Virus record (IMG/VR): IMGVR_UViG_3300013093_000004
Location: 1 to 54,866 of that record
DNA from: a virus
Direction: 5' to 3' (one strand)
Length of the DNA: 54,866 nucleotides
Shown: in pieces, positions 37,288 to 51,260 of the stretch
How positions within the stretch are numbered: position 1 is the first letter of the stretch
Layout: every line of letters starts with the position of its first letter
Position numbers and translations under genes: made by a program
Notes under the pieces: model-generated
The model's database searches: none
What the model was told of the DNA's origin: nothing
What the model saw: only the letters and a program-made list of their open reading frames with translations

Positions 37288-38607
37288 TTATGCGCGCAAG
37301 ACTGTTACATTGGCGTCCTTTTGCGTGAGTTTTGCGTGAAGTGCCGGGCCGGCGGCCTTGGTCAGGTCGGCGACGATATCGTTGATGCCGTCGCGCACCG
37401 TGGCCAGATAGCCCGGATCAAAGATCGCGTAGCGGCTGCTGGTCTTGCTGATCACGCGGTGGCCCAGCGCCATTTCGAGCTGCACCAGGTCAACGCCGCG
37501 GTTGGCCAAGATCGTGGCCATGCTGTGGCGAATAAGCTTTGGGCCCCACCCGTCGGGGATGCCCAGCTGCGCGCGGGCGCTGGTCCAGCCTGACCGAATG
37601 CCATCGACCGGGGTTTGCGTAGTGATCTCAACCTTGCGCCGATCGTCATAGCGGGTCGATTCGCGGCAGACGAACCATTCATCGGTCGCGTGCAGCCAAT
37701 TGGCCAGCAGCGGCACCACGGGCACGATCGGGCGCACCTTCTTGGTCTGGATCCGGCCGGCTGGGTTCAACGCAAACAGGCCGTGATCGCGCAGCCATTG
37801 CTCGCGCGCCGGCGCCACGCTCATGTCCAGGATCGCATCAGGCCGGGCCAGCGTGCAGATCGCGGCGATCAGGTAGCGGCGCAGTGGCATCAGGATCGCG
37901 CCGTGGCCGGCGTAGCGCCCTGCCCCGCGCAAACTGTAATCCAGCAGCTCGGCAATCGATTCGACCGACAGGCGATAGGTGCGCTGCGGCGTGACCTGGT
38001 CGCGCGTCTTGTGGGCCAGCGGAGGCACGTATTTGGTGCGGCGGGCGCGCCATGCGTGATTCAGCGCGGCTTTGAGCTGGATCACGCTCTCTTCGACGGT
38101 GCTGGCGCTGCGCGGGCGCGATTGGCCGGCGATCCAGTTGCCGGCGGCGTCCTTTTTGCGCGCGACGATTGGATCAGCGATCGCCCAGGCACGAAACCGG
38201 TCCAGCAGGCGGTCATCGATATGGTCGGGCAGTAACTGGTCGGGGATGCGGCCGGCCGCTTCTTCGATGTCCAGAAACCGCACCAGCAGCTTGATGCGCG
38301 CCTTGATCGGGTCTGCACTGGGCAGATGGCGGCCGTGTTCCTGCCAATAGTCGTTCAGCGCCGCGTGGACGGTATAAACGTCCTGTTCGGCTGGGGTTGC
38401 GCGGTGCGTCGCCAGGTAATGCTGATCGAGCGCGTCGCAGGCTACGCGAACGTCTGCCGTGCGCGTGCTTTTGCGCTGTTGTCGGCCGGCGGCGGCATCA
38501 TACCACCAGATGTACCACCGATCGCTGGCGGGTCGGCCGTCGCCGCCGCGGACGAGGTCAAGCCAGAACGGGCCCCGCTGATAGACGCCACCCTTGATTG
38601 CCGACAT
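37288..38607 (-). CDS. int: Tyrosine-family integrase
   Basis: 439 residues. The catalytic domain shows Arg255 (TLARPDAIL), Lys290 (QTKKVR), Arg360 (LIRHSMAT), His383 (LGHRV) and Tyr393 (SSRYAIF). The usual His of the H-x-x-R box is Lys357. The N-terminal part has an arm-binding look (GGVYQRGPFWLDLVR), and a core-binding helical domain follows at about 75-190. It recombines attP with a host tRNA gene. It is the last gene of the leftward operon, ending just before the terminator and attP. Its start overlaps the preceding small gene for 166 bases. Confidence 0.93.
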   Translation of the reverse strand: MSAIKGGVYQRGPFWLDLVRGGDGRPASDRWYIWWYDAAAGRQQRKSTRTADVRVACDALDQHYLATHRATPAEQDVYTVHAALNDYWQEHGRHLPSADPIKARIKLLVRFLDIEEAAGRIPDQLLPDHIDDRLLDRFRAWAIADPIVARKKDAAGNWIAGQSRPRSASTVEESVIQLKAALNHAWRARRTKYVPPLAHKTRDQVTPQRTYRLSVESIAELLDYSLRGAGRYAGHGAILMPLRRYLIAAICTLARPDAILDMSVAPAREQWLRDHGLFALNPAGRIQTKKVRPIVPVVPLLANWLHATDEWFVCRESTRYDDRRKVEITTQTPVDGIRSGWTSARAQLGIPDGWGPKLIRHSMATILANRGVDLVQLEMALGHRVISKTSSRYAIFDPGYLATVRDGINDIVADLTKAAGPALHAKLTQKDANVTVLRA

Positions 38608-48248: not shown

Positions 48249-48472
48249 GACGTGATCACCCGGGCGAGGCCCTTCAGCGTGTCGGGGCTGATGCCGATAT
48301 CGGCAAAAGCGGCCAGCATGCGGCCCTTTGCTTCAAAGTGGTGGGTCCGGTTGCCGCCGACGGTGCGGTAATGTTCGCCCACGGCGGCAATGATCGCCTC
48401 TGCCAACGGCGAAAGCGTCGCGGCTGGGCGCGATGGCGCCGGTGGCGTCGAAATGGATCGAGCGGGTTGCAT
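48245..48472 (-). CDS. First gene of the leftward operon, 75 residues
   Basis: It begins at ATG 48472 behind a strong GGAGGTGA, some 30 bases downstream of the pL start. The N terminus is Pro/Ser/Ala-rich. The rest is helical (LAEAIIAAVGEHYRTVGGNR, then GRMLAAFADIGISPDTLKGL). It would be the first protein made from pL after induction. No family is recognised. Confidence 0.65.
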   Translation of the reverse strand: MQPARSISTPPAPSRPAATLSPLAEAIIAAVGEHYRTVGGNRTHHFEAKGRMLAAFADIGISPDTLKGLARVITS

Positions 48473-48510
48473 CGGGTCACCTCCATCGCCGCGATTGCGG
48501 TGATGGGGTG

Positions 48511-48539
48511 AGATTACGATTACCGTAAAATTACGTCAA
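48511..48539 (-). promoter_or_regulatory. Leftward early promoter pL
   Basis: Read on the minus strand: TTGACG (48539-48534), a 17-base spacer, TAATCT (48516-48511). A repressor operator (48514-48528) fills the end of the spacer and contributes the TAA of the -10, and a second operator (48548-48562) lies just upstream of the -35. It drives the whole leftward operon. Confidence 0.75.
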
Positions 48540-48562
48540 GCCGGTTTTTACGGATTCCGTAA
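48514..48562. promoter_or_regulatory. Left operator pair (TTACG-N5-CGTAA)
   Basis: TTACGATTACCGTAA at 48514-48528 and TTACGGATTCCGTAA at 48548-48562 are perfect 5+5 palindromes with five-base centres, 34 bases apart. They match three sites between the repressor and cro genes. The right one runs to the last base before the stop codon of the exonuclease gene. Confidence 0.85.
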
Positions 48563-49426
48563 TTACAGGCCGACAGTAGCCGTCATGGCAAGAAAATCGG
48601 TTTCGGCGATGATGCGGACAGGGTGGCCGGCGGCTTGCATCGCCTCTGCCTTGCGGTGTTTCGAACTTTTGGCGTGGCCGGCCAGTTTCGACAGATCCTG
48701 ATCCCCGACCACCAGCATGGTGGTTCGTTCTGTCACCAGACTGTCGACAACAGCGCCCATGCGATGCGCCAGATCAGCGGCAGTGTTGCGCTGGAAAACC
48801 AGCTTTCCAGTGAACACCACGGTTTCACCGTGCAATGGACCTTCGTCGCCGGCTGGGCGTTTGACCGAGTTGCGATCTTGGGCCGTGATTGGATTGCGCT
48901 GGTGATTGATCCAGTCGGCGATCGTCAGACCGCTATCGCGAACGGCGTGCAGAAAAATGTGGCCTGCCGCGCGTGCATCGTGTTCGGCGTCATGGTGCTG
49001 AAACGCGAGGCCAAGGCGATCGGCCAGCGGGCGCAAGCCATAGCCCCGCTGCGCAACATCTGGCCAAGTTCGCCGCGCCACCTTTGCGCTGTCGATCCAG
49101 ATGCATTCAATCGAAGGCAATCCAGCGTGTGCGCAAGCCTGCTGAATCGATACGCGGTCAAAATGGGTGTGATGCACGACGATCGCGCCTTGCAGCGCAG
49201 AAGCCAAGCCAGTGTGATAGTCGGAGAAGATCGGCGCCTCTGCGACGGCGGCGGCATCGATCCCGTGGATCGAAACATTGACCGGGTCGAACCAGGTCTG
49301 CGGATCGATCAACCAATTGTGCGAACCCACCTCGTTGCCTGCTTCGTCGAATACGACCAACCCGATCTGGCAAATGCTGCCCATGAAAGCGTTGGCAGTT
49401 TCCACATCGAGCGCGACGAAGCCCAT
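48563..49426 (-). CDS. DEDDh 3'-5' exonuclease fused to a BRCT domain
   Basis: 287 residues from ATG 49426, overlapping the lipoprotein stop. The exonuclease part (1-165) has Asp7 and Glu9 in FVALDVETAN, Asp90 in HHTHFDRVS, and His145 and Asp150 in HHDAEHDARA, the full DEDDh set. The last 90 residues are a BRCT domain (GETVVFTGKLVFQRNTAADL, then MGAVVDSLVTERTTMLVVGD, and SSKHRKAEAMQAAG). This fusion occurs in bacterial epsilon-like exonucleases. Here it is third in the repressor operon, so it is likely made in the lysogen and could act on damaged or foreign DNA. Confidence 0.88.
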   Translation of the reverse strand: MGFVALDVETANAFMGSICQIGLVVFDEAGNEVGSHNWLIDPQTWFDPVNVSIHGIDAAAVAEAPIFSDYHTGLASALQGAIVVHHTHFDRVSIQQACAHAGLPSIECIWIDSAKVARRTWPDVAQRGYGLRPLADRLGLAFQHHDAEHDARAAGHIFLHAVRDSGLTIADWINHQRNPITAQDRNSVKRPAGDEGPLHGETVVFTGKLVFQRNTAADLAHRMGAVVDSLVTERTTMLVVGDQDLSKLAGHAKSSKHRKAEAMQAAGHPVRIIAETDFLAMTATVGL

Positions 49427-49791
49427 CAAATTCGCCCGGAACAATCGGCGATCGCGAAGCGCCCCGATGAATGACTGGCGCGTGCCAACCGGCCATCAAT
49501 CAAGATCTGGCATTCGATGTAATCTTCGTCGGCTTGATCGAGCTGCGCCGACAGGAACACCCGGTCGCCGCTGGTGACGATGTCATCCTGGGACCAGGGC
49601 AGAAAAACGCCAAGTTCGTCCATACCGCCCGATTTGTTGACCATGCGGACCTTGGCGATCTCGCTCGGCAAATCAGGATGCTCTTTTTTCCAATCCGGCG
49701 AACCGATCACGCGGTATGTGATTTTGTGCTGCGTCGGGCTGCAAGAGATGAGGGCAAGCGACAATCCGGCGAGTGCCAAGCCCGCGCGCAT
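49426..49791 (-). CDS. Lipoprotein with MmpS-like beta domain, in the repressor operon
   Basis: 121 residues from ATG 49791, one base after the repressor stop. A signal peptide ends in the lipobox LALISC (Cys17). The mature part has the pattern of the small MmpS-like beta domain: KITYRVIGSPDW, VRMVNKSGGM, LPWSQ, then YIECQILIDGRLAR and FAIADCSG, with a Cys pair that could form a disulfide. It would be attached to a membrane, facing the periplasm or the outside. Because it is transcribed with the repressor, it is a candidate lysogenic conversion or superinfection exclusion factor; this is inference. Confidence 0.75.
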   Translation of the reverse strand: MRAGLALAGLSLALISCSPTQHKITYRVIGSPDWKKEHPDLPSEIAKVRMVNKSGGMDELGVFLPWSQDDIVTSGDRVFLSAQLDQADEDYIECQILIDGRLARASHSSGRFAIADCSGRI

Positions 49792-49792
49792 G

Positions 49793-50398
49793 TCAAAGAC
49801 CCGCGCTGCTGCCATAGGCCACCACCCGGCCGACAACGGTGATCGGATGATCACCGATTACGATCGGCTGGTGCACCGGGTTGTGCGAATCCGGCGCAAA
49901 GCGCGCCGGTGATTCCTGGTACCGCTTCACGGTGCCCTCTCCGCCTCCATTCATGATCAGATAGACCCGGCCAGGGTAAAGATCGCGCTGATCAGGATCA
50001 ATGATCGCCCAGCAGCCGTGTGGCATGACACGATCCATGCTGTCGCCATAGACTTCGACCGCAAATGCTTGGTTTTCGCCTTTCACGCGCAATCTGGGGA
50101 TGTGATACACCGGCAACTCGACAGCTTCCTGCCATGATCCGGCGGCGGCGATACCGATGACCGGGACCATGACCACGTTCGACGGGTCTGCGTTTTCCTG
50201 TTCTGCCTCTCCCAAACCAAGGAATTCGGCCAGCACGTCCATTTCGTGCTGCTGAATCCGGCGGGTGCCCTTTTTGATTTCGGTGATGCGTGACGCCCCG
50301 ACGCCAAGGAAATCGGCGATCTGTTTGCCGGTGAAGCAACGCTTTTCCAACGCGGCCAGCAGCGCGCTGCGAATCTGATCATGCGTCACGATGGCCAT
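49793..50398 (-). CDS. cI: CI/LexA-like phage repressor (S24 peptidase)
   Basis: 201 residues from ATG 50398. Residues 7-60 are a Cro/CI-type HTH (FTGKQIADFLGVGASRITEI). The C-terminal S24 domain has Ser120 in VYGDSMDRVM and Lys158 in TVKRYQ, and the Ala86-Gly87 bond in IGIAAAGSW is the likely self-cleavage site. RecA-stimulated cleavage would induce the prophage. It probably binds the five TTACG-N5-CGTAA sites. It has no Shine-Dalgarno before the ATG; the transcript may be leaderless as with lambda cI. In-frame codons up to 50443 lie within the operators. Confidence 0.92.
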   Translation of the reverse strand: MAIVTHDQIRSALLAALEKRCFTGKQIADFLGVGASRITEIKKGTRRIQQHEMDVLAEFLGLGEAEQENADPSNVVMVPVIGIAAAGSWQEAVELPVYHIPRLRVKGENQAFAVEVYGDSMDRVMPHGCWAIIDPDQRDLYPGRVYLIMNGGGEGTVKRYQESPARFAPDSHNPVHQPIVIGDHPITVVGRVVAYGSSAGL

Positions 50399-50407
50399 GC
50401 CGGCACA

Positions 50408-50483
50408 TTGCGGAAATCGTAATGCAGATTCTATAACGAACATCGTAATAATCCGGGTTGCTTTGAATTTACGAATATCGTAA
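50408..50483. promoter_or_regulatory. Right operator triple between repressor and cro
   Basis: Sites: TTGCGGAAATCGTAA (50408-50422), TAACGAACATCGTAA (50434-50448) and TTACGAATATCGTAA (50469-50483). The third is a perfect 5+5 palindrome and the other two differ in one base of the left arm. The spacing of centres is 26 and 35. Binding would cover both pR and the repressor's own promoter. Confidence 0.85.
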
Positions 50484-50486
50484 TTC
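50458..50486 (+). promoter_or_regulatory. Rightward early promoter pR
   Basis: TTGCTT (50458-50463), 17 bases, TAATTC (50481-50486). The operator 50469-50483 occupies the spacer and gives the TAA of the -10 exactly as at pL. Transcription would start near 50493-50494, at the ATG of the cro-like gene. A second possible promoter is TTGCGG (50408-50413) with TATAAC (50432-50437), spacer 18. Confidence 0.6.
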
Positions 50487-50493
50487 AGCCGTC

Positions 50494-50814
50494 ATGATGA
50501 CTGCGACGCAAATTATCGAAGGGTTGGGCGGCACAGTGCAGGTCGCCAACGCGCTCGGTCTGGCGCCGACCACGGTTTCAAGCTGGAAGTCTGCGAATTC
50601 GATTCCGAAGTGGCGCATGCCTGGCATCGAGCAGCTGGCGCAGGAAAAAGGGTTTGCCCTCGGGTCGCAAGCCGAAGGGCGGGGCGGCGGTTCTGGCAAT
50701 AGCATTGGCACTGCCGATGCGGCCGCCGCCCCTGATGTTTCACCCCCGCCCCCATCCACGGGTGAAGCCGAAGCCGGGGGCGTGCTGCCGTGCGCCCCCG
50801 GCGGAGGCGTTTGA
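50494..50814 (+). CDS. Cro-like regulator
   Basis: 106 residues from ATG 50494 (a second ATG follows at once). Residues 3-45 form a YdaS/Cro-type HTH (ATQIIEGLGGTVQVANALGL, then APTTVSSWKSANSIPKWR). The C-terminal half is a Gly/Pro/Ala-rich tail. It is divergent from the repressor across the operators and opens the rightward early operon, as cro does. No Shine-Dalgarno lies before the start. It should compete for the same operators and shut off the repressor promoter. Confidence 0.82.
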   Translation: MMTATQIIEGLGGTVQVANALGLAPTTVSSWKSANSIPKWRMPGIEQLAQEKGFALGSQAEGRGGGSGNSIGTADAAAAPDVSPPPPSTGEAEAGGVLPCAPGGGV

Positions 50815-50817
50815 ACG

Positions 50818-50946
50818 ATGCGGGTGGCGCTCGAAATTCTGGGCGGCTGGTTTGCGCTGTCGTGCTTTTGCGCGCTGGTGTGGTGGCGGCTGAGCAAGAT
50901 CGTCGACGTGCATGCGGAACCTTCGGACGATGCGGGGGGCATGTGA
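50818..50946 (+). CDS. Small single-span membrane protein
   Basis: 42 residues from ATG 50818 (GGAGG eleven bases upstream, inside the end of the cro-like gene), ending in an ATGA overlap with the LexA-like gene. The hydrophobic segment GWFALSCFCALVWWRLSKIV is flanked by charged ends. Overlap and ribosome site support it. Role unknown. Confidence 0.6.
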   Translation: MRVALEILGGWFALSCFCALVWWRLSKIVDVHAEPSDDAGGM

Positions 50947-51260
50947 TGGATCAGGTTCACCCCTTCCCTTGCACGCGCCGGCAGATGGACCTGTTGCGCT
51001 TCATCGCCGGGTATACCGAGGCGCGCGGGTGTGCGCCGGATTTGCGCGAGATGGCCAATGCAATCGGCCTGGCGACGAAGGGCGGCGTTGTGCGCCTGCT
51101 GACAGGGCTTGAACAGCGAGGCCACGTTGCGCGCGGGCGTTACCGCGAACGCAGCACGGTGGTGCTGAGCAATCCGCCCCTTGCCCGCGCGCCCGACGGC
51201 GCGCCGCTTCATTTCATCCCGGTGGAGTTGCTTGGTTGTCATGGGGGTAGTGATGCCTGA
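50946..51260 (+). CDS. LexA-type winged-helix protein without peptidase domain
   Basis: 104 residues from ATG 50946. Residues 9-70 follow the LexA DNA-binding domain: CTRRQMDLLRFIAGYTEARG, CAPDLREMANAIGL, VVRLLTGLEQRGHVARGR. The C-terminal 35 residues have no Ser-Lys dyad, so it cannot cleave itself. It might bind SOS-box-like or phage sites and modulate the switch after induction. It lies second to third in the early operon. A frame beginning at 50790 crosses the neighbour and is rejected. Confidence 0.75.
   Translation: MDQVHPFPCTRRQMDLLRFIAGYTEARGCAPDLREMANAIGLATKGGVVRLLTGLEQRGHVARGRYRERSTVVLSNPPLARAPDGAPLHFIPVELLGCHGGSDA

Follow-up and report, generated by a model that had tools for sequence, protein, structure and literature searches.

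The switch region and its genomic setting

The window analyzed here is the whole 54,866-bp record, a single virus contig which encodes a terminase, a portal, a tape measure, an O-like replication protein and a tyrosine integrase. The gene content, in which both an integrase and lytic structural genes are found, is that of a temperate phage. The organization of the region between the integrase and the early genes is provided in Table 1. pL is the start of the leftward operon and a gene for a Cro-like helix-turn-helix (HTH) protein is the first of the pR operon. A megablast search of the switch region against the phage collection gave no match, similarity to any record being undetectable at the DNA level.

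Table 1. Features of the immunity region and associated genes (positions in the window; promoters and transcripts are predicted)
Feature	Position	Strand	Sequence or elements	Remarks
Tyrosine integrase	37288-38607	-		Encoded on the strand transcribed from pL, some 10 kb farther downstream
pL leader	48440-48513	-	CATCACCGC..GCGGCGATGGAGG	Stem-loop with the Shine-Dalgarno sequence on its 3' arm
pL promoter	48511-48539	-	TTGACG (48534-48539)-17-TAATCT (48511-48516)	TTGACN kept in relatives
OL1	48514-48528	-	TTACGATTACCGTAA	0 mismatches; reads TTACGGTAATCGTAA in the pL direction; in the pL spacer, supplies TAA of the −10
OL2	48548-48562	-	TTACGGATTCCGTAA	0 mismatches; 34 bp upstream of OL1
Two genes between repressor and OL	48563-49854	-		Exonuclease-BRCT gene (48563-49444) and lipoprotein-like ORF (49426-49854)
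Repressor	49793-50398	-		N-terminal HTH (helices 24-31 and 35-43), C-terminal S24 domain
pRM (predicted)	50405-50433	-	TAGAAT (50428-50433)-17-CAATGT (50405-50410)	OR3 at the same offset as OL1 and OR1
OR3	50408-50422	+	TTGCGGAAATCGTAA	1 mismatch (position 3); within the pRM spacer
OR2	50434-50448	+	TAACGAACATCGTAA	1 mismatch (position 2); centre at −43 relative to the repressor start codon
pR promoter	50458-50486	+	TTGCTT (50458-50463)-17-TAATTC (50481-50486)	
OR1	50469-50483	+	TTACGAATATCGTAA	0 mismatches; within the pR spacer
Cro-like HTH protein	50494-50814	+		P22-Cro/YdaS-like
LexA-type gene region	50946-51260	+		Shortly 3' of cro

The S24 domain of the repressor (Pfam, 2.4e-18) has an invariant Ser/Lys dyad (S120 and K158) and an Ala-Gly site (A86-G87), which are predicted features of self-cleavage. 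The ATG at 50398 is supported as its start codon because the distance to OR3 (9 nt) is constant. In a structure model (mean pLDDT 82), R37 and E40 are placed on helix 3, which is the recognition helix, and among solved folds that of lambda CI is the closest. The Cro-like protein scored below the curated Pfam cut-offs for both P22 Cro (PF14549, 26.9 vs 30.2 bits) and YdaS (PF15943, 28.2 vs 30 bits). In four relatives (L009, L061, L124, and L199), the HTH and the operators are kept, the S24 domain is apparently missing and the C-terminus of the repressor is short and different; such repressors are possibly not SOS-inducible.

The operator sites

The first-pass annotation had described one palindrome, TTACG-N5-CGTAA, used five times at pL and in the repressor-cro gap. 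All five sites were found, three of them perfect and two with a single mismatch, and a scan of the 54,866 bp allowing 0-1 mismatch returned no other; the many equal sites elsewhere that would speak against an operator are thus absent from the phage record. Simulation of 200 first-order Markov sequences yielded a mean of 0.4 sites at 0-1 mismatch and of 0 perfect sites, and never more than 2 in any 2 kb. Positions 1 and 15 are dictated by promoter elements, and the conserved core is TACG-N5-CGTA, which refines the original motif.

The two mismatches recur among 30 relatives, in which position 2 of OR2 is other than T in 28 and position 3 of OR3 is G in 29. Given that they are kept at a median HTH identity of 48%, they are features of the sites and not decay. 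The OR2 sites of L009 and L061 are without the usual deviation at position 2.

Promoters and predicted transcripts

The equal offset of the site at pL and pR, also claimed in the first-pass annotation, was borne out, since in both promoters the −10 box opens with the three bases that end the site (OL1 or OR1). A third promoter, pRM, was predicted upstream of the repressor. Relative to the start codon of the repressor, its family consensus (TCGACN-17-CAATGT) falls exactly at −35 and at −12 (to −7), with six unconserved bases after it; the hexamers of the window are weak. A pRM −10 box inside OR2 or OR3 was considered and rejected, as the conservation profile places it at −12.

The position of the pRM hexamers relative to the start codon, together with the six unconserved bases, is as predicted for a leaderless repressor message. 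The ATG of cro follows OR1 by 10 nt in the window and mostly by 9-11 nt in the relatives, so that its message is probably leaderless. The layout of both promoters therefore points to leaderless repressor and cro mRNAs. These predicted messages, the pRM with OR3 at the shared offset, the conserved deviations of OR2 and OR3 and the covariation of Cro described below go beyond the earlier annotation.

Relatives and conserved layout

Relatives were sought from the DNA and from the protein side. Scans of IMG/VR with the DNA pattern alone (tandem sites) retrieved the repressor HTH at 7 of 24 and at 22 of 33 loci, and a control scan with reversed words retrieved it at 0 of 15. About half of the pattern-only loci had other centres and no related repressor, and are probably due to chance or to other regulators. 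The reverse search, starting from the protein, gave 18 loci with a scorable repressor, all of which have two or three OR sites and 17 of which have an OL pair. Since the record holds a virus contig only, sites in host chromosomes were assessed in 397 genomes of the host family, where the HTH profile (E<1e-20) singled out the same four genomes, at the same loci, as the DNA pattern; three of these four had first come from an earlier DNA scan. The named hosts of the relatives are Novosphingobium, Sphingobium, and Sphingomonas. A class-level search with Cro yielded mainly large unrelated proteins.

The geometry was compared over 30 non-redundant repressors (pairwise HTH identity: median 48%, minimum 28%), L038 and a few truncated loci being excluded from the table. 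Their layout is common: 9 nt separate the end of OR3 from the start codon of the repressor, OR2 lies 26 bp beyond OR3 and OR1 another 32-35 bp. In the 29 relatives with an OL pair, the offset of OL1 in pL is equal within about 1-2 bp. The distance between OL2 and OL1 is 23-26 bp in 24 relatives (25-26 bp in the majority of relatives) and 34-35 bp in five; in the short class, the OL2 arm is always CGTAT and its last T doubles as the initial T of the TTGAC −35 box.

Covariation of the recognition helix and the operator

Loci with the Cro-like gene and no TTACG have an identical layout with different operator words. Specificity was therefore examined in 112 non-redundant switches with a confident OR1, counted after HMM alignment; it must be noted that the OR1 picker favours a CG-N5-CG core and that words outside this frame are perhaps under-counted in this set. 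Repressors with an R..E recognition helix have TACG/CGTA operators in 39 of 41 switches, and the two exceptions (L217 and L198) are hybrid operators with one TACG half. Among the 67 switches with an x..K helix none has TACG/CGTA, the words being TGCG/CGCA (47), TCCG/CGCA (14), TGCC/GGCA (3), and three rarer ones. The two helix classes differ at many residues, so that no single-residue code follows from the comparison.

The word at OL is that of OR1 in all 83 switches with an OL pair, although OL lies 0.7-2.2 kb away, beyond the repressor gene, and the search for it allowed all T[ACG]CG words. Downstream of cro, pairs of the OL type were found in 0 of 105 regions (1 of 540 in shuffles). A natural swap is provided by L104 and L210, whose C-terminal domains are 72% identical, with only 28% identity in the HTH (over 39 residues) and operators reading TTACG..CGTAA and TTCCG..CGCAT, respectively; the difference is also seen at OL, for L104 and for L218, a close relative of L210. 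The Cro protein covaries as well: the residue after the Trp of its recognition helix is K in 33 of 39 TACG/CGTA switches and R in 47 of 47 TGCG/CGCA switches. Taken together, the covariation of helix and word, the match of OL and OR1, the L104/L210 swap and the covariation of Cro are the strongest grounds for the view that the sites are read by the repressor, together with Cro. In this regard, the proposal that operator and repressor could be paired from sequence alone was substantiated by these 112 switches and by the identity of the OL and OR1 words. The reader is very probably the S24 repressor, and the Cro-like protein would be a second one.

L217 is a natural recombinant which combines an R..E repressor with a WR-type Cro; in the 140 bp upstream of its cro gene, OR1 and OR3 are hybrid (TGCG..CGTA) and OR2 is TGCG..CGCA. 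In L210, L218, L169 and others, the operators are asymmetric (TCCG..CGCA) and face the promoter in the same way at OR1 and OL, the TGCG half adjoining the −10 box.

That the palindrome is set by the Cro-like protein alone, and not by the S24 repressor, might be suggested by the presence of Cro at nearly every such locus and by the covariation of the residue after its Trp, but we consider this improbable. The repressor helix covaries more strictly, being R..E in 39 of 39 switches of the TACG/CGTA class, in which three Cro proteins have R at that residue, and L217 joins a WR-class Cro to an R..E repressor and hybrid operators. Moreover, the positions of OR3 and OR2 on pRM and the word followed at both OL and OR are those expected of a master repressor.

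Still less credible is that the phages have recruited the sites of a host regulator, such as one that acts in the cell cycle or in the stress response of Sphingomonadales. Genes of alphaproteobacterial phages are reported to be controlled by host factors, CtrA among them (PMC9437464), but here the word changes with the HTH of the phage's own repressor, the phage record is without further sites, and the OR1-OR2 pattern is confined, in the 397 host-family genomes, to the four loci with this repressor. It is equally hard to believe that the likeness of palindrome and promoter reflects shared promoter sequence (the TAA of the −10 box) in place of an operator. The outer bases of the sites are indeed dictated by promoter elements, as in the CGTAT of OL2 and the TAA of OR1; nevertheless, OR2 lies outside any promoter spacer with both arms kept, the arms away from the −10 box are equally conserved, and other classes show a symmetrical change of the core word.

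The HTH, the OR sites and cro are adjacent and could be transferred jointly as one block. Against such a move, OL lies beyond the other domain of the repressor and yet its word still matches. Three builds of S24-domain trees gave 6-10 class changes, 3-7 of them forced by supported branches, and the classes interleave. The operator followed the class change in 2-5 cases and the opposite occurred in 0, numbers with which a sign test cannot reach 0.05, the few independent events limiting phylogenetic independence. We lean toward the view that temperate phages of sphingomonads share one 15-bp operator frame (most with CG-N5-CG) and that their immunity group is set by the arm word, above all by the third base of the word. 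The change of the helix from R..E to x..K and of Cro from WK to WR would then be matched simultaneously at all OR and OL sites, with the hybrids L217 and L198 as natural intermediates.

Proposed mechanism and comparison with known switches

The comparative data support the reading, put forward in the first-pass annotation, of a lambda-like switch whose palindrome is recognized by the S24 repressor. With a probability of roughly 0.88, we interpret the region as the immunity switch of a temperate siphovirus that has relatives among the prophages of Sphingomonadales (Novosphingobium, Sphingobium, Sphingomonas), in which the S24 repressor would read TACG-N5-CGTA. The sites, the promoters, the fixed geometry and the covariation of the recognition helix with the operator, both at OR and at OL, are observed in silico, and from them we infer binding, activation, autocleavage, the order of occupancy and the role of Cro, with lambda as the model for activation at pRM, cleavage, cooperativity and filling order.

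A dimer of the S24 (CI-type) repressor would bind the TACG-N5-CGTA core through its third helix. On OL1 and OR1, between the −35 and −10 boxes, it would shut pL and pR. On OR2, whose centre lies at −43 relative to the start of the repressor gene, it would be in a position to stimulate the weak pRM, like lambda CI at −42; this geometry is consistent with positive autoregulation. On OR3, inside the pRM spacer, it would limit its own synthesis. Upon DNA damage, RecA-aided self-cleavage at A86-G87 would release pL and pR, and Cro would then be made from a leaderless message and read the same sites.

As in lambda (NC_001416), the repressor and cro genes are divergent with three OR sites between them, and similar sites are found at the other early promoter. 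In both phages the operators overlap pR and pL (here according to sequence) in a position to block RNA polymerase. The −10 box begins inside the operator with the same offset at pR and pL, at base 14 of 17 in lambda and at base 13 of 15 here. Measured from the annotated record, the OR2 centre of lambda is at −42 (−43 here) and that of OR3 at −19 (−17 here). Unlike in lambda, the operator has 15 bp with a 5-bp centre, there are two OL sites instead of three, and the spacing between OR1 and OR2 is 35 bp (24 in lambda). In addition, the cro start codon is 18 bp from the OR1 centre (35 in lambda), which again makes a leaderless cro probable. Most of the defining features of the lambda switch are thus found, except for three OL sites, and the switch would be expected to work like that of lambda.

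Exchange of helices in 434 and P22 is said to have established that specificity is set by residues of the recognition helix. Those phages and 933W have few, unrelated operator sequences, whereas here the arm word varies within one 15-bp frame across more than 100 switches. The 933W repressor also owes its specificity to recognition-helix residues and has OR sites of unequal strength (PMC3317979). In the immB region of the telomere phages PY54, N15, and phiKO2, leaderless cI and cro messages were mapped by RACE, and the operators of these relatives differ only in peripheral base pairs and hence in Cro specificity (PMC4488713). PY54 and N15 are therefore a precedent for leaderless cI and cro and for specificity through peripheral operator bases; in contrast, PY54 Cro binds a single site (PMC4488713), and here five sites at three promoters are involved, with the word change at all of them.

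Searches of open-access papers turned up neither an account of this operator family, which as a negative is weak evidence, nor a mapped switch for the sphingomonad host group. The operator family and its specificity code therefore appear to be undescribed. They supply a predicted operator-repressor pair for sphingomonad hosts and more than 100 natural pairs in one frame, which could serve as orthogonal regulators for sphingomonads. In addition, the evolution of phage immunity specificity becomes testable with respect to which helix residues set the word and whether Cro must change with CI. A further question is whether phages that share a word are mutually immune even though the identity between their repressors is often no more than about 40%.

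Additional features of the region

The two genes between the repressor and OL occupy the place of rexA and rexB in lambda. Judging from their position, they are probably co-transcribed with the repressor, and they are candidates for functions expressed in the lysogen. The lipoprotein-like ORF has an LISC lipobox. The gene region shortly 3' of cro encodes a LexA-type DNA-binding domain (Pfam, 1.9e-9) without the peptidase domain.

A hairpin of the CTCC..GGAG type, comparable to that in the pL leader of the window, is found directly before the first gene in most relatives. A different element, GTGAGCCG(C/A)AAGCGCAGACC, is absent from the window and occurs nearly identically just after pL, in the leader of some 6-7 different phages (carriers include L003, L038, L049, L056, L095, L104, and L183) whose surrounding sequence is otherwise different. 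It looks like a structured RNA element, perhaps antitermination-like.
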